A stretch of DNA of 64,000 nt, taken from the NCBI RefSeq assembly GCF_963378095.1, contig NZ_OY726397.1, positions 4,340,001 to 4,404,000 on the forward strand, in the 5' to 3' direction. The DNA is from Mycolicibacterium sp. MU0053 (GTDB lineage: Bacteria > Actinomycetota > Actinomycetes > Mycobacteriales > Mycobacteriaceae). Position 1 is the stretch's first letter. Every line of letters starts with the position of its first letter. Below are positions 30,893-37,624 of this stretch, in pieces. The notes below the pieces were generated by a model. It was not told the origin of the DNA. It did not search any database and saw only the letters and a program-made list of their open reading frames with translations. The position numbers and the translations under genes are program-made.

Positions 30893-31516
30893 GGTAGCTC
30901 CAGCACGTCGGTCAGTGCCTCGAAACTGACCGAGGCGTACTTGGGTTGCACTGTAGACCGCGGCCGGCCCGCGCCCCCAGTCACACCGACTTCCGCGCCC
31001 CGGCACCGCACCTTCCAGCAAATTTTACCGGCGTTGCGGATGCATCGATCGCAAATTTTCACCGAGCCCAAATTTCGCCGCGATCCGACCCCTCGCGGCG
31101 ATCCAGCGCACAGCGCGGGATGGCGCCGAACGCCTGCCGCTCGGGCGCCGCCGAGAAAACTCGCGCCACCGCGTCTCGGCGGCCGGCGGCCCACCGCGAC
31201 AGCCCCGGGGCGCAAGTTGTACGCGCTCGTGCAATTTGGGCAAATCCACAATGGCTGGTTGGAAATTGGACCGCGGACACCCATTTCGGAAAGTTTTCGC
31301 CGCGAAATCGATACCTCCGCTAATCAATTGCCCGTATTCATGAGGACGTCATCTGCACTTTCGCCCCACGGTGGGTCTGATCAGCAAGAATGACCCAGCC
31401 TCGACGGCGGTTCGCGAGATAATTATGGGTAGCAATAAAACGGGTCGGGGTACTCGCAAAGAAGAACTCAGCTCCGCGCAACATCGGTGCCGGACTGACC
31501 GACAGATAGGAAAGCC
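30893..31516. other. 624-bp gene-free stretch ahead of the acyltransferase-P450 operon
   Basis: No convincing gene on either strand: the open frames present lack ribosome sites, family features and normal composition. It contains AT-rich islands unusual for this DNA (AAATTTT at 31020-31026 and 31053-31059, AAATTT at 31070-31075, ATAATTAT near 31419) and a 13-bp palindrome TTTCGC-C-GCGAAA (31295-31307). It separates divergent genes (lipoprotein and acyltransferase), so it is a plausible complex control region, perhaps with nucleoid-protein (Lsr2) binding. Confidence 0.6.
31295..31307. promoter_or_regulatory. 13-bp palindrome, candidate operator of the acyltransferase operon
   Basis: TTTCGC-C-GCGAAA has perfect 6-bp arms and lies about 210 bp upstream of the acyltransferase start. 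No regulator gene is adjacent, so the binding protein is unknown. Confidence 0.35.
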
Positions 31517-32245
31517 GTGAATCATCAGCTTACCGAATTGCACGCCCCATCGGTGCGCCTCGAATCCAGCGCCCACTGGTGGGACCCCGACACGGAGTGC
31601 ACTTTGGTGCTTGCCCGGCCGGGGGACGAACCGGCGCTGTGGCAGGAATACCTCGCCGGAGCCGATTACAGCTACCGTAAACACGGTGTCGAATGCGCGC
31701 TTGACATCGAGGAAATCCAAGACGGTAGCGACACCGCGCTGTTCTTCGTAGCTATTGACAGCAACAAGCGCATCGTGGCCGGTGTCCGCGCCAAGGGTCC
31801 GCTGATCGATGCCGATGATTCCCACGCCGTGGTGGAGTGGGCCGGCCAGCCGGGGCTGCCGGCGGTGCGCAAGATGATCGACGACCGCGCCCCGTTCGGC
31901 ATCCTCGAGATGAAGTCCGCGTGGGTCACCGATGAGCCGGGCCATGCCCGCGCATTGACCCGCGCCATCGCCCGGTCCGGCTTCCATGCGATGGCCGTGA
32001 TGGATATCCAGTTCTGCATGGCCACCGCCGCGGCCTACGTCCTGGACCGGTGGCGATCCTCGGGCGGCGTGGTCGCCGCCCACATCCCACCGACGCCGTA
32101 TCCCGACGACCGGTACGAGACCACGATGATGTGGTGGGACCGCAGCACCTTCGCCAACCACGCCAAGCCCGAGCAGGTCGCCAAGATCCTGCGCGAGACC
32201 GCCATGCTGCGTCGGGAAACCCTGAGCCAGGGGGCGTCGGCATGA
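31517..32245 (+). CDS. GNAT-superfamily N-acyltransferase, LuxI/FeeM-like layout
   Basis: A 242-residue protein from GTG 31517 (AGGAAAG ribosome site). The order of elements recalls acyl-homoserine-lactone synthases and FeeM N-acyl-amino-acid synthases: an Arg/acidic segment DYSYRKHGVECALDIEEIQDGSDTALFFVA, then a strand plus IVAGVRAKG, then EMKSAWVTDE where LuxI proteins have E-L-S-R-F-A-V, and a helix ending MATAAAYVLDRW. The key LuxI Arg after that Glu is replaced (K-S), so the acceptor probably differs from S-adenosylmethionine. It would join a fatty acyl group (from acyl-CoA or ACP) to an amine. First gene of a coupled operon with P450, ThiF-nitroreductase and GGDEF-EAL proteins. Fold-level assignment is moderate; product unknown. 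Confidence 0.6.
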   Translation: MNHQLTELHAPSVRLESSAHWWDPDTECTLVLARPGDEPALWQEYLAGADYSYRKHGVECALDIEEIQDGSDTALFFVAIDSNKRIVAGVRAKGPLIDADDSHAVVEWAGQPGLPAVRKMIDDRAPFGILEMKSAWVTDEPGHARALTRAIARSGFHAMAVMDIQFCMATAAAYVLDRWRSSGGVVAAHIPPTPYPDDRYETTMMWWDRSTFANHAKPEQVAKILRETAMLRRETLSQGASA

Positions 32246-33651
32246 CCGCGGTACTCGAACCCCTGCTGGCGCCGCGCACCGTCCCGGCGCCCGAGCGGAC
32301 CCCCGCGATCGCGGATTTGCCGGCGGCGCCGCGCAATCCGCTGCCCTACCGGCAGCGCCTGGCCGCGGTGAAGTCCTATCACACCGGCACCGAGATCCTG
32401 CGGGACGCGGGCGGTCCGGTGACCCGGATCGTGTTGGCGCCCCGGTGGTTGATGTCGCCCATCGTGCTGGCCACCTCGCCGCAGGCGATCCGGGATGTGC
32501 TCGGTGTGCGCGACGGCACCGTCGACAAGATGTCACCGGTGTTCGCCGAACTGCGCGCGATCCTCGGGGAGAATCTGGTGAATCTGCCGCACGACCGGTG
32601 GCTGCCGCGGCGCCGCACGATCCAGCCGGTGTTCACCAAGCAGCGCATCGCACAGCTCGGCACGCACGCGACCGCGGCCGCGGACTCCGTCGTCCGCGAC
32701 TGGCAGCACGGCGCCGAGATCGACCTGGGCGCCGAATCCCGGAAGCTGACGATGCGGGCGCTGGGCCGGTCGGTCTTCGGCATCGACCTGGCCGACCGGA
32801 CCGAGGCCATCGAGGAGCATCTGCAGACGACGCTGACCTACGCGGTGCGCCGCGCCCTGCGGCCGGTCCGGGCGCCCGGGTGGCTACCGACGTCGGCGCG
32901 ACGTCGGGCACACCGCGCCAGTGCCGAGTTGCACGGCCTGGCCAACGACATCCTGCAGCAGTGCCGGGCCCAGCCGGAGCGGGAGGCGCCGCTGGTGCAG
33001 GCGTTGATGGCGGCCACCGACCCGGTCACCGGCCGCGGGTTGACCGACCGGGAGATCTGCGACGAGCTGATCATCTTCCTGTTCGCCGGCCATGACACCG
33101 TCGCCACCACCCTCACCTATGCGCTCTGGCAGCTCGGGCGTAATCCGCACATCCAGCAGCGGATGGCCGATGAGGTGCACCGGCTCGGCGATCGGATGCT
33201 CACCGGCGCCGACCTGCCGGGTCTGGAGTACACCAGCCAGGTGGTCAAGGAGGCGCTTCGGCTGTGCCCACCGGCGCCCACCGGCACCCGCACGGCAACC
33301 CGCGACCTGAACGTCGGCGGGTACCGGGTGCCGGCCGGCACCACCCTGGCGTTCGGCCGGATGGCCGTGCAACGGGATCCGGCGTTGTGGGACAACGCGC
33401 TGGTCTTCGACCCGGACCGGTTCGCGCCGGGCCGGGCCGCCGGGCGCGACCGTTGGCAGTATCTGCCGTTCGGTGGGGGGCCGCGGTCCTGCATCGGCGA
33501 CCACTTCGCGATGATGGAGGCGACGCTGGCATTGGCGATGTTGATCCGGGAGGTCGAAATCGATTCGCTCGAGGACACCTTTCCGCTCGCCGTCCATTTC
33601 ACGCTGGTCGCCGACGGCCCCATCCCGGCCCGGCTGCGCAGGCGCCGATGA
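32242..33651 (+). CDS. Cytochrome P450
   Basis: A 469-residue P450. The heme ligand is Cys417 in LPFGGGPRSCIGDHFAMMEA. The oxygen-activation I-helix is FLFAGHDTVATTLTYALWQ, the E-x-x-R is in KEALRLCPPAP, and DNALVFDPDRFAPGR is the PERF-like region. Overall style resembles fatty-acid-type actinobacterial P450s close to mycobacterial CYP132/137/138, but I do not assign a family number. It probably hydroxylates the product or substrate of the acyltransferase. Start and stop overlap both neighbours by 4 bp (ATGA at 32242 and 33648), so expression is tightly tied. Electron donors are not encoded here. Confidence 0.93.
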   Translation: MTAVLEPLLAPRTVPAPERTPAIADLPAAPRNPLPYRQRLAAVKSYHTGTEILRDAGGPVTRIVLAPRWLMSPIVLATSPQAIRDVLGVRDGTVDKMSPVFAELRAILGENLVNLPHDRWLPRRRTIQPVFTKQRIAQLGTHATAAADSVVRDWQHGAEIDLGAESRKLTMRALGRSVFGIDLADRTEAIEEHLQTTLTYAVRRALRPVRAPGWLPTSARRRAHRASAELHGLANDILQQCRAQPEREAPLVQALMAATDPVTGRGLTDREICDELIIFLFAGHDTVATTLTYALWQLGRNPHIQQRMADEVHRLGDRMLTGADLPGLEYTSQVVKEALRLCPPAPTGTRTATRDLNVGGYRVPAGTTLAFGRMAVQRDPALWDNALVFDPDRFAPGRAAGRDRWQYLPFGGGPRSCIGDHFAMMEATLALAMLIREVEIDSLEDTFPLAVHFTLVADGPIPARLRRRR

Positions 33652-35768
33652 GTAGTTCCGACCCCACCCGATGGCGGCCGGTCATCCTCGACGAGGACGT
33701 CGCCGAGGACCGGGATGCGTTGGCCCGGCTCCGCGGCGACCCCGCCGTGGAGTTCCTCGACCATCGGTCGGCGCAACTGGCGGGGCTGCATGAGCTGCGC
33801 CCGCCACCCGGGGACGACGTGCTCGGCGAGCGGCACCGCTGGGTGCACTACCCGTGGCGTCGGACGGTCGTGGGCCTGCTGGGGCCCCGGGCGTTCCGGA
33901 CGCTGCGCCTGGACCGCAACCGGAACCTGATCACGGCCGCCGAGCAGCAGCGGCTCGGCCGGCTGTCGATCGGGGTGGCCGGCCTCAGCGTCGGTCATGT
34001 CATTGCACACACCCTTGCCGCGCAGGGACTCTGCGGGCAGCTGCGGCTGGCCGACTTCGACCTGCTGGAGGTGTCCAACCTCAACCGGGTCCCGGCCACG
34101 GTGCTCGATCTCGGCGTCAACAAGGCGGTGGTGACCGCGCGGCGGATCGCCGAACTGGATCCCTACCTCCCAGTCACGGTGTTGCCAGCCGGGGTCACCC
34201 GGGACACCGTGGACGGGTTCGTCGACGGACTCGACGTGGTGATCGAGGAATGCGATTCGCTCGACATCAAGGCCGTGGTCCGGGAGGTCGCCCGACGGCA
34301 CCGGGTGCCGGTGCTGATGGCCACCAGCGACCGCGGCCTGATCGACGTGGAACGCTTCGACCTCGAACCCGAACGGCCCATCCTGCACGGCCTGTTGGGG
34401 GCGGTCGACGCCGAGACGCTCGCCGGGATGTCGGCGCGCGACAAGATCCCGCACATGCTGGGGCATCTCGACGTGCCGCGGGCCTCGGCGCGCGCGGCCG
34501 CGTCGATGGTCGAGGTCGGCAGGACCCTGACCACCTGGCCGCAGCTGGCCGCCGACGTGGTGCTCGGGGCGACGACGGTCGCCGAGGCGGTGCGCCGCCT
34601 CGGCCTCGGCGAGCCGTTGCCGTCCGGGCGCACCCGCGTCGACGTCAGCGCCGCACTGGACGGACTCGCCGAGCCCCCGCCGGTCCCCGACCCCACCGGC
34701 ACGCCGGCACCCGAGCCTCCGGAGGTGCCCGCCGACGTGGTGGCGCGGATCGCCGCGGCGGCCAACCGCGCCCCCTCGGGCGGCAATGCGCAGCCGTGGC
34801 GGATTGTGACGCAACCGGATTCGGTGTCGGTGCGGCTGAATCCCGACTATCGGGCGACCATCGACGTCGGCCACCGCGGCAGCGCGGTGGCCGTGGGCGC
34901 CGCGGTGTTCAACGCGCGCGTCGCCGCGGCGGCCCACCGAATGCTGGGCCCGCTCAGCTGGCAGCAGGACCCGCTGACCGCGACGCTGCGGCTCGAACCC
35001 GGCGAGGACGCCGCGCTGGCCGACCAGTACGAGGCGATGTGGCACCGGGAGACCAACCGCAACCGCGGCGCGGGCGGCGCATTGGACCGCGACGCCCTCG
35101 ATGACTTGCAGTCCGCGGCCCTGGCCGAGGGGGCCCGGCTGCAGATGATCGCCGCCGGGGCCGACACCGAGGCACTGATCGACATCCTCGCGGCCACCGA
35201 CCGGATCCGGTACCTGACGCCGCGGCTGCACCACGAGATGATCAGCGAATTGCGTTGGCCCGCAGACCCCGAACCGGACTCGGGCATCGAGGTGGGACTG
35301 CTCGGTCTCGACGACAGCGACCTGGCGGTCCTGGAGGTGCTGCGCCGGCCCGACGTGATGGCCCACCTGGCCGACTGGGAGGCCGGATCCGCGCTCGGCG
35401 ACGAGGTCGGCGAGCGGATCCGGGTCAGCTCCGGACTCGGCGTGGTGTGGGTCGACGGGCGCACGTTGGGCGACTACGCGCGCGGCGGTGCCGCGGCCGA
35501 GGCGGTGTGGATTGCCGCGGCGGCCCGGGGGCTTGCGGTGCAACCGATCTCGCCGGTCTTCCTGCACGCCCATGACGAGGACGAACTGCAGGAGGTTTCG
35601 GCCGACTTCGCGCCGCACCTGCACGAACTGTCCGGCCGGTTCCGCCGGCTGGTCGGGGTTCCCGCCGATGCGGGCCTGATCCTGCTGCTCAGATTCGCCG
35701 CGGCGCCGCCCACCGCGGGGCGCAGCCGGCGCCGGGCCCTGACGCTGTCCCATCGACCGGAGAGGTGA
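33648..35768 (+). CDS. ThiF/E1-like adenylyltransferase fused to a nitroreductase domain, Rv1355c (MoeY)-like
   Basis: A 706-residue two-domain protein. Residues about 100-330 are a ThiF/MoeB/E1-like Rossmann domain (LSIGVAGLSVGHVIAHTLAAQG, RLADFDLLEVSNLNR, VVIEECDSLDIK), which would adenylate a carboxylate. The usual zinc-binding Cys pairs of MoeB/ThiF are missing. Residues about 360-700 look like a nitroreductase/FMN domain (AAANRAPSGGNAQPWRI; HHEMISELRW). The architecture and length match M. tuberculosis Rv1355c, named MoeY, whose role is unproven. There it neighbours the GGDEF-EAL gene Rv1354c, exactly as here. E1-nitroreductase fusions occur in peptide/natural-product tailoring, so a modification role is plausible. 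Confidence 0.82.
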   Translation: MSSSDPTRWRPVILDEDVAEDRDALARLRGDPAVEFLDHRSAQLAGLHELRPPPGDDVLGERHRWVHYPWRRTVVGLLGPRAFRTLRLDRNRNLITAAEQQRLGRLSIGVAGLSVGHVIAHTLAAQGLCGQLRLADFDLLEVSNLNRVPATVLDLGVNKAVVTARRIAELDPYLPVTVLPAGVTRDTVDGFVDGLDVVIEECDSLDIKAVVREVARRHRVPVLMATSDRGLIDVERFDLEPERPILHGLLGAVDAETLAGMSARDKIPHMLGHLDVPRASARAAASMVEVGRTLTTWPQLAADVVLGATTVAEAVRRLGLGEPLPSGRTRVDVSAALDGLAEPPPVPDPTGTPAPEPPEVPADVVARIAAAANRAPSGGNAQPWRIVTQPDSVSVRLNPDYRATIDVGHRGSAVAVGAAVFNARVAAAAHRMLGPLSWQQDPLTATLRLEPGEDAALADQYEAMWHRETNRNRGAGGALDRDALDDLQSAALAEGARLQMIAAGADTEALIDILAATDRIRYLTPRLHHEMISELRWPADPEPDSGIEVGLLGLDDSDLAVLEVLRRPDVMAHLADWEAGSALGDEVGERIRVSSGLGVVWVDGRTLGDYARGGAAAEAVWIAAAARGLAVQPISPVFLHAHDEDELQEVSADFAPHLHELSGRFRRLVGVPADAGLILLLRFAAAPPTAGRSRRRALTLSHRPER

Positions 35769-35770
35769 GG

Positions 35771-37624
35771 ATGCCGCGCAGTCTCGAATTGGTCGTGACG
35801 TCGGTGGCCACCCAGCTGATGGCGGCCGATTCGGCCAACGTCATCCCGGTGATCGAACGCATCCTGGCCGACCTGGTGGCCTACTTCGGCGTCGACGTGA
35901 GCTTTCTGCGGCGCAACGATCACGACATCAAGGCGTCCATCCTCGTCGCCGAGTGGCCACCGAGACCCTATGTGCCCGATCCGGATCCGCTTGCCGTCAT
36001 CTACTTCGCCGATGCCGACCCGGTGTTCGCGATCTCCGAGCACGGCAAGAAACCGCAGGTGTTCCGCCCCGAACCGAACACCGACGAATACCAGCAGACC
36101 ATCGAGGGCGGCGGGGGCGTGCCGCACAGCTCGATGGCCGCGGCACCGCTGGTGTCGGGTGATCTGACCACCGGGGTGCTCGGCTTCGTCAAGTTCGGTG
36201 ACCGGCGCTGGTCCCAGGAGGAACTCAACGCGCTGGAGGCCATCGCGTCCCTGTTGGCGCAGGTGCAGGCCCGGATCAAGGCCGAGCAGCAGCTGCGGTA
36301 CCTGGCCGAACACGACGACCTGACCGGGGTCTACAACCGCCGCAATCTGATCGCTCATCTCGAGGACCGGCTGCAACCCGGCCAGACCGAGCCCGTGCCG
36401 TTGTTGTTCCTCGACCTCGACCGGCTCAAATCCGTCAATGATTACCTGGGCCACACCGCGGGCGACAAGTTCATCCAGGTCTCGGCCCAACGGCTGCGCC
36501 AGGAGACCGGGTCGGACTGCCTGATCGCCCGGCTCGGCGGCGACGAGTTCGTGGTGGTGCCGGTGGCGACCATGTCCCCCGCGGCCGCCCAGGAGCTGGC
36601 CCACCGGCTGCACACCGCGTTGAGCGAGCGGGTCGCGGTCGACGGCGAACTGTTGTCCCGCACCGTCAGTATCGGTGTGGCCATGGGAAATCCGGGCCAG
36701 CATTCGGCCTCGGACCTGTTGCGCCGCGCCGACCAAGCTGTGCTGGAAGCCAAGGATTCCGGCGGCAACGCGGTCAGCGTCTTCACCGAGGACATGGAGT
36801 TGCGCACGGCGCTGCGCAACGACGTCGAATTGCACCTGCAGGGCGTCATCGAGGGCGATGCCCTGGTACTGCACTATCTCCCCGAGATAGACATGCGCAC
36901 CGGCGAGGTGTTGGCGGCCGAGGCCCTGGTGCGCTGGCAGCACCCGACCCGCGGACTACTGTTTCCCGACTCCTTCATCGGGGTGGCCGAATCCATCAAC
37001 CTGGCAGGCGAATTGGGCCGCTGGGTGCTCCGCACCGCGTGCGCGGAGTTTCGCCGGTGGCGCGCCGGCGGCGTGGGACTCGACGCCGTGCTCCGGATCA
37101 ACGTCTCCCCCGTGCAACTGGTGGCCGCCGGGTTCGCCGAAACCGTGGAGGGCATCCTGAGCGAGTTCGGGTTGCCCGGCAACGCGGTCTGCCTCGAGCT
37201 CACCGAAAGTCTGGTGGTGCAGGACATCGAGGCCACCCGGATCACCCTCGCGGCCCTCAAGGAGGTCGGGGTGCAGATCGCCATCGACGACTTCGGCACC
37301 GGCTACAGCGTGCTGTCCCATTTGAAGTCGCTGCCCGTCGACACCCTCAAGATCGACCGCAGCTTCGTTCGCGACCTCGGCAACAGCGCCGGGGATCTGG
37401 CGATCGTGCGGGCCATCATCGCGCTCGCGGAGGCCTTCGGACTCGACCTGGTGGCCGAGGGCGTCGAGACCGTCGCGGGCGCACAAACCCTGTTGGAGCA
37501 GCGCTGCTACCGGGCACAGGGCTATCTGCTCTCGAAGCCGTTGGAAGGCCCGGCCATGGAAGCCCTACTGGCGCAGGGACGTATCCAACTGCCCTTCCCC
37601 GCTGCCGAGCCGCTACCGCGGTAG
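35771..37624 (+). CDS. GAF-GGDEF-EAL cyclic-di-GMP turnover protein, Rv1354c-like
   Basis: A 617-residue soluble protein with an N-terminal GAF sensor domain (about 1-170), a GGDEF diguanylate cyclase domain (canonical GGDEF at 256-260) and an EAL phosphodiesterase domain (EAL at 384-386; LELTESLVVQD, IAIDDFGTGYSVLSHLKSLPVDTLKIDRSFV). Both catalytic signatures look intact, so it may make and break c-di-GMP. The four residues that would form the RxxD inhibitory site read GSDC, so product inhibition is probably absent. M. tuberculosis Rv1354c has the same domains. ATG 35771 (GAGAGG upstream) is 2 bp after the ThiF gene. A GTG at 35765 is an alternative start. Confidence 0.93.
   Translation: MPRSLELVVTSVATQLMAADSANVIPVIERILADLVAYFGVDVSFLRRNDHDIKASILVAEWPPRPYVPDPDPLAVIYFADADPVFAISEHGKKPQVFRPEPNTDEYQQTIEGGGGVPHSSMAAAPLVSGDLTTGVLGFVKFGDRRWSQEELNALEAIASLLAQVQARIKAEQQLRYLAEHDDLTGVYNRRNLIAHLEDRLQPGQTEPVPLLFLDLDRLKSVNDYLGHTAGDKFIQVSAQRLRQETGSDCLIARLGGDEFVVVPVATMSPAAAQELAHRLHTALSERVAVDGELLSRTVSIGVAMGNPGQHSASDLLRRADQAVLEAKDSGGNAVSVFTEDMELRTALRNDVELHLQGVIEGDALVLHYLPEIDMRTGEVLAAEALVRWQHPTRGLLFPDSFIGVAESINLAGELGRWVLRTACAEFRRWRAGGVGLDAVLRINVSPVQLVAAGFAETVEGILSEFGLPGNAVCLELTESLVVQDIEATRITLAALKEVGVQIAIDDFGTGYSVLSHLKSLPVDTLKIDRSFVRDLGNSAGDLAIVRAIIALAEAFGLDLVAEGVETVAGAQTLLEQRCYRAQGYLLSKPLEGPAMEALLAQGRIQLPFPAAEPLPR

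Follow-up and report, generated by a model that had tools for sequence, protein, structure and literature searches.

A P450-bearing relative of the trzAS operon in Mycolicibacterium and its probable link to cyclic-di-GMP

Introduction

What might be made, and to what end, by an operon that places a cytochrome P450 between an acyltransferase and an adenylating flavin oxidase, and closes with a cyclic-di-GMP (c-di-GMP) enzyme? The question is posed by a 64,000-nucleotide stretch of Mycolicibacterium sp. MU0053, hereafter the window, which covers bases 4,340,001–4,404,000 of a genome held in a single contig of 5.45 Mb. In it, four plus-strand genes overlap by 4 bp and 4 bp and are then separated by a 2-bp gap, according to their open reading frame (ORF) coordinates. 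The answer that we consider probable is that they form a P450-bearing relative of trzAS, the N-acyl product of which, most likely a tryptophan-derived oxazolone, would be oxidised by the P450 and tied to c-di-GMP through a GAF-GGDEF-EAL enzyme.

Rv1356c and Rv1355c were described in December 2025 as TrzA and TrzS, the makers of N-acyl tryptazolones, which are oxazolone lipids (PMC12856293; this paper, PMC2994820, PMC5517500 and PMC10198500 are cited throughout from the part of each text that was available). Their discoverers regard the role of the oxazolone lipids as a major unresolved question. The initial annotation of the window, made from the letters alone, had proposed an unknown acyl-signal or lipopeptide pathway, the core chemistry of which was already in print as that of TrzA and TrzS. 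A known pathway core is present here in a new, P450-bearing form with an evolutionary history of its own.

The four-gene operon

The first gene (31517..32245, plus strand, GTG start) encodes a 242-aa protein that its position and predicted fold mark as a TrzA relative, a putative N-acyl amino acid synthase of FeeM/LuxI type. It is followed by a cytochrome P450 of a trz-linked clade (32242..33651, plus strand, 469 aa; Pfam p450, 234 bits), a TrzS-like ThiF cyclase fused to a nitroreductase-type flavin oxidase (33648..35768, plus strand, 706 aa; Pfam ThiF 76 bits, Nitroreductase 40 bits), and a c-di-GMP enzyme of the Rv1354c/DcpA type (35771..37624, plus strand, 617 aa; Pfam GAF, GGDEF and EAL, with intact motifs). 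The 2-bp gap follows from an ATG start of the fourth gene at 35771; in the ORF list its frame opens with a GTG, at position 35765. Both the coordinates and the Pfam families (P450, ThiF with Nitroreductase, GAF-GGDEF-EAL) agree with the initial annotation, which further held that genes overlapping in this way must act together; overlap makes co-transcription likely and does not demonstrate joint action.

With A, P, S and D standing for trzA, the P450 gene, TrzS and the GGDEF-EAL gene, the order A-P-S-D of the window recurs in six rows that represent five distinct loci (the window, L003, L035, L122 and L036; L036 and L004 are one and the same contig). In L011 this order is joined by a second GGDEF-EAL gene. 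The four-gene arrangement is not chance: the same genes stand in the same order in other mycobacteria, so that the proposed set extends beyond a single strain. That the four are neighbours by accident, or merely share a promoter, is barely credible: overlap by itself is no proof of joint function, but the adjacency is kept across genera and the genes co-occur.

A relative of trzAS

The third gene product carries both Pfam domains of the published ThiF–flavin oxidase fusion and matches the NCBIfam model NF005901, "Rv1355c family protein", with 980.7 bits against a cut-off of 476; its nearest species-named relative, from [Mycobacterium] wendilense, is 80% identical. Three M. smegmatis TrzS residues reported to be important, D217, R540 and Q651 (PMC12856293), would correspond to D203, R521 and Q632 here, if placed by offsets of 14 in the ThiF half and 19 in the oxidase half, at which the letters agree. 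D203 and R521 are invariant in 150 rows, and Q632 is present in 118 of them. The old name of the Rv1355c family, that of a molybdopterin enzyme, was considered and rejected for this protein.

For the acyltransferase, neither Pfam nor NCBIfam gives a match above cut-off, and as a sequence search of solved structures returned nothing meaningful (one row, E 1.3), its fold was predicted. By structure comparison, this predicted fold is that of FeeM (PDB 2g0b) and the LuxI-type synthases, including LasI, BjaI, RpaI and TofI, with ordinary GNAT acetyltransferases close behind. The model thus bears out the initial assignment as a LuxI/FeeM-like acyltransferase, and places such an enzyme in the same operon as trzS, with the P450 gene in between. 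On these grounds gene 1, by position and predicted fold, and gene 3, by sequence, are relatives of Rv1356c and Rv1355c, respectively, and the N-acyl product foreseen by the initial annotation would follow by kinship to TrzA.

The GNAT-like acyl-synthase fold of the model, and its resemblance to LasI, BjaI, RpaI and TofI, could also suit a quorum-signal synthase of the acyl-homoserine-lactone type. This identity is very improbable and was rejected: there is no Pfam autoinducer synthase match at E 0.01 (the one Pfam row is unrelated and under cut-off, and there is no NCBIfam row), the gene lies beside a ThiF–flavin oxidase gene as in trzAS, and the characterised trzA relatives acylate tryptophan (PMC12856293).

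Comparison with the described systems sets the locus apart. In trzAS (Rv1356c-Rv1355c, and the homologues in M. smegmatis and R. jostii RHA1) an acyltransferase is likewise followed by a ThiF–flavin oxidase fusion, and in M. tuberculosis the pair is likewise beside c-di-GMP genes; in the window, unlike in trzAS, a P450 gene lies between the two and overlaps both, and the TrzS is of a P450-linked clade. The tyzACB genes of M. tuberculosis, responsible for tyrazolones, supply the same three activities, but with ThiF and oxidase as separate genes and a different acyltransferase (PMC10404671); the words P450 and c-di-GMP are absent from the main text of that paper. OxzAB of Pseudoalteromonas rubra also combines an acyltransferase with a ThiF-oxidase fusion, but is proteobacterial, and its ThiF domain falls in another subcluster of the PMC12856293 network; no P450 or c-di-GMP partner appears in its descriptions in the available text of PMC10404671 and PMC12856293.

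A cytochrome P450 that appears to travel with TrzS

The P450 retains the residues F410-G411-R415-C417-G419, E337..R340 and A282-G283-D285-T286, conserved in 43 rows, which we take to be the heme-cysteine loop, the ExxR motif and the I-helix A-G-x-D-T motif, respectively. Its nearest solved relatives are each titled "Putative cytochrome P450" (7wzl, E 1.1e-74; 3dbg, E 3.6e-51), and the best NCBIfam row, albaflavenone monooxygenase, reaches 236.8 bits against a cut-off of 700, so neither gives a substrate.

Linkage to the trz genes is a property of nearly the whole clade. Among 148 genomes of the genus there are 31 P450 hits of at least 600 bits, of which 26, the one in the window included, lie near TrzS and two adjoin a second trzA away from TrzS (L156, L159). 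The remaining three are not trz-linked: L155 is on a 4.6-kb contig, while L157 and L158 are outside the clade. A P450 tree of 42 rows has a clade of 35 (support 98, two row pairs being from the same contig) that holds all 34 trz-linked P450s, its sole non-linked member being L155; as most of the tree rows were fetched for their TrzS, the count of 31 hits is the less biased of the two. The five fetched hits below 600 bits (L160–L164) are all unlinked to trz and outside the clade. The linkage persists through rearrangement, with 12 order strings of P, A, S and D in 32 rows; these come from 30 distinct contigs, part of them truncated at a contig end or at the limit of the fetched stretch.

The trees of TrzS point the same way. 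A 60-row tree under a mixture model comprised the P450-linked rows, eight others placed among these by an earlier, 149-row FastTree, and 23 hand-picked rows; its 29 P450-linked rows and the eight make up a single group of 37 (support 93). In the FastTree itself, the P450-linked rows, 31 in number, all belong to a group of 39 (support 92). Identities of P450 and TrzS are correlated across 29 loci (r = 0.86, a figure that still contains host kinship), a value reached in none of 999 permutations.

An apparent gene swap provides a sharper view. Five P450 clusters (L039, L044, L048, L053, L056) share a chromosomal site with four that have no P450 (L041, L046, L054, L058), bordered by the genes for a SpoU methylase and a GH76 protein on one side and a phosphoribosyltransferase/ClpB block on the other (for L039 the fetched stretch covers the methylase side only); the window cluster occupies the same site. 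Between the five and the four, mean identity is 90% for trzA and 86% for the GGDEF-EAL gene, against 59% for TrzS, and the TrzS of the five falls in the P450-linked clade. On the simplest reading of these sequences, a P450-TrzS pair appears to have replaced the resident TrzS. As the P450 and TrzS seem to have moved as a pair, with trzA left in place, the most likely target of the P450 is the substrate or product of TrzS, and its action would probably come at the TrzS step or later.

The P450 can also decay. In the 3,271,694-bp genome of L077, a 51-residue P450 remnant (best E 9e-17) lies between trzA and trzS; in G400 (L074, 3.27 Mb), two shorter P450 pieces in different frames occupy that position (E 4e-10), and G628 (4.24 Mb) has a broken P450 there. 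In L077 and L074, TrzS and the GGDEF-EAL gene are long matches free of stops, and trzA is one unbroken match in each. Remnants in this position give some A-S-D clusters the look of A-P-S-D clusters from which the P450 has gone, and they suggest a P450-bearing ancestry for part of the simpler clusters in host-adapted mycobacteria. The proposal in the initial annotation that Rv1355c and Rv1354c are the remnant second half of such a set survives in this more precise form: the M. tuberculosis set also has its TrzA, Rv1356c, and, by the consecutive gene numbers, the P450 is the lone absentee, while the two 3.27-Mb genomes hold actual P450 remnants between trzA and trzS.

Several observations temper this picture. 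Eight of the 37 rows in the TrzS group have no intact P450 nearby (two have remnants, and the contigs of some are short), which marks the P450 as dispensable. The identities of P450 with TrzA (0.70) and with the GGDEF-EAL protein (0.71; 20 loci each, 0 of 999 permutations as high, host kinship again included) are also strongly correlated, and co-divergence on its own therefore does not point to TrzS in particular. Four P450-TrzS loci (L040, L067, L069, L124) have neither trzA nor a c-di-GMP gene in the fetched flanks, and no measured product of any P450-bearing cluster is reported in the literature searched.

Mycobacteria carry many P450s, and one of them might ride in an oxazolone-making operon as a passenger, its true substrate being something unrelated, for example a sterol or a fatty acid; its loss from clusters that keep trzA, trzS and the GGDEF-EAL gene (the eight of 37 rows, and the remnants) would suit such a role. 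The passenger explanation is nonetheless improbable, given that the clade stands beside trz genes in 34 of 35 rows and in 28 of the 31 strong hits, in many gene orders, and that the P450 co-diverges with TrzS and seems to have moved with it in the gene swap. By these sequence comparisons the P450 belongs to the trz operon, as a new variant feature beyond the published core. Its association with trz genes has no report in the main texts of the open-access literature searched, and the term P450 is absent from the main text of each of PMC12856293, PMC10404671 and PMC12479983.

As a separate observation, two genomes, G319 (L061/L159) and G355 (L081/L156), have trzA-trzS, no GGDEF-EAL relative at cut-off, and a trzA-P450 pair elsewhere.

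The c-di-GMP enzyme and its adjacency to trz

The GAF-GGDEF-EAL protein has intact catalytic motifs (GGDEF at 256–260, EAL at 384–386, and DDFGTGYS). It contains the only EAL domain found in the source genome and the only GGDEF domain with an intact motif. The other GGDEF-family match in the genome (genome position 1882328–1882786, minus strand; L206), in a 403-residue frame, has DSEF in place of GGDEF and is likely inactive as a cyclase. One HD-GYP-type protein is present, so another c-di-GMP phosphodiesterase is possible.

Rv1354c (MtbDGC) and MSDGC-1/DcpA of M. smegmatis share the GAF-GGDEF-EAL architecture and intact motifs (PMC2994820, PMC5517500), and Rv1354c both makes and degrades c-di-GMP (PMC2994820). 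By analogy, the window protein is predicted to be both cyclase and phosphodiesterase. Its gene differs from those of Rv1354c and DcpA in closing a P450-bearing operon, 2 bp downstream of trzS.

Adjacency of the trz genes to such an enzyme is widespread. From the genus, 87 loci were fetched, of which 86 passed the TrzS score limit (L121 fell below it) and 77 had 4 kb on both sides; 53 of the 77 show a tight A>S>D arrangement, and in 60 a GGDEF-EAL gene is close behind TrzS. For other genera, tight A>S>D is found in 26 of 27 loci picked, mostly as strong matches, from 122 matching genomes. Among named contigs (32 loci fetched, 22 with full flanks), 17 of the 22 show tight S>D, and S-D adjacency extends to Acidimicrobiales, other actinobacterial bins, Phytoactinopolyspora and Haloactinopolyspora. 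A GGDEF-EAL relative is found in 82 of 85 genomes with TrzS as against 32 of 63 without it, kinship still being contained in these figures. A 4,752-bp deletion reported in 30 M. tuberculosis genomes removes rv1354c and moeY (rv1355c) and cuts into rv1353c and rv1356c (PMC10198500), so that loss of the pathway can extend to its c-di-GMP gene.

The coupling is not universal: of the 22 loci on named contigs that have full flanks, just 13 show tight A>S>D, no close relative of the GGDEF-EAL gene stands behind TrzS in the Williamsia loci, and such relatives also occur in 32 of 63 genomes without TrzS. The initial annotation took the physical union of an acyl pathway with c-di-GMP turnover to be new. 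The union itself stands; its novelty does not, as PMC12856293 had already noted, in one sentence, the position of trzAS next to c-di-GMP genes in M. tuberculosis. The link is wider than that single remark.

Some loci depart from the common arrangement of the c-di-GMP gene. The genome of operon locus L077 (G365 C1; 3,271,694 bp) has three GAF-GGDEF-EAL copies with identical scores, at 1032796, 2375079 and 2846265, which may be real repeats or a matter of assembly. In G628, three tandem GAF-GGDEF-EAL genes follow TrzS (L210, 7495–14013), with an EAL-type match upstream of trzA. In nine loci of Acidimicrobiales-type or other actinobacterial bins (L013, L014, L016, L018, L019, L025, L028, L030, L033), about 600–800 bp separate TrzS from the GGDEF-EAL gene, which would accommodate another small gene; a second GGDEF match comes next. 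Separately, an "Acidobacteria" metagenome-assembled genome contig (L007; JAKIXW010000178.1) holds mycobacterium-like trz genes, 55–70% identical to those of the window, among flanking genes of 67–84% identity, and is probably a misbinned mycobacterial contig.

Proposed pathway

In the pathway that we envisage, the TrzA-like enzyme would move a short or medium acyl chain from acyl-coenzyme A to an aromatic amino acid, after which the ThiF half of the TrzS-like protein would adenylate and cyclise the N-acyl amino acid to an oxazolone and its flavin half would desaturate it, as shown for relatives (PMC12856293). The P450 would then oxidise the oxazolone or its N-acyl precursor. The GAF-GGDEF-EAL enzyme would make and break c-di-GMP, as shown for Rv1354c (PMC2994820); conceivably, its GAF domain might bind a pathway molecule, or c-di-GMP might set the output of the pathway. 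A little-understood lipid family would thereby gain an extra chemical step and a likely second-messenger link. If a P450 accompanies TrzS, a set of modified oxazolones is to be expected, none of which is reported in the literature searched, and as the operon holds the only EAL gene and the only intact GGDEF of its genome, the suspected link to c-di-GMP is directly testable.

Does the GAF domain sense the product?

The predicted GAF domain is complete, and the best structural matches of the model include GAF domains of phytochromes and methionine sulfoxide reductases, which bind small molecules. At equal catalytic identity, the GAF domains of trz-linked proteins resemble one another by 5 to 11 points more than they resemble those of standalone proteins, a difference seen in each of the 7 bins in which the two kinds of pair are both present; four rows had been excluded beforehand as second copies or misfits. 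Between the gene-swap clusters and their same-site counterparts, 13 of 133 GAF sites are fixed differently as against 0 of 389 catalytic sites, and this split ranks second by Fisher p among 87 splits of the GGDEF-EAL tree (some of which are one split seen from both sides).

The signal is nevertheless diluted from several directions. Of the 11 rows counted as standalone, nine belong to a single clade, and the excess in GAF similarity therefore amounts to little more than one event. GAF change is in excess at other splits too, where the P450 does not change, and one of 13 hand-picked control splits is similar to the gene-swap split, with a ratio of 18.5. The gene-swap clusters retain nearly the same GGDEF-EAL catalytic domains. 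With catalytic similarity held across 75 loci, GAF similarity has a partial rank correlation of −0.22 with that of TrzS and 0.06 with that of TrzA; confidence in product sensing is lowered since it tracks neither.

With the sequence evidence thus mixed, sensing of the pathway product by the GAF domain seems rather unlikely. Slightly more doubtful still is the fuller scheme, in which a P450-modified tryptazolone would be a signal, the co-encoded GAF domain would read the oxidised oxazolone and set c-di-GMP, and swaps of the P450-TrzS pair would change the dialect, the GAF domain changing afterwards. A stronger contender, albeit one short of an even chance, is that the GAF domain senses another cue, such as redox state or a different small molecule, and that c-di-GMP controls the timing or export of the lipid while the product goes unsensed. 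The absence of tracking with TrzS or TrzA, the bursts of GAF change at splits with no P450 change, and the existence of standalone relatives in genomes without TrzS all favour this alternative; the closer likeness of trz-linked GAF domains and the uneven fixation of GAF and catalytic sites in the swap clusters argue against it.

The upstream region

The block ahead of the operon (31377..31516, plus strand) is a candidate promoter or leader. A promoter scan gave no match to the sigma-70 consensus in it, and an Rfam scan of the surroundings of the operon for RNA elements, a c-di-GMP riboswitch among them, returned two rows, both below the gathering score and neither a riboswitch. In an alignment of six upstream regions, two of them from the same contig, several stretches are kept among A-P-S-D clusters: CTGATCAGC (31377–31385), GATAATT (31418–31424), GGGGTACTCGCAAAG (31447–31461), and AGGAAAG ahead of the GTG start.

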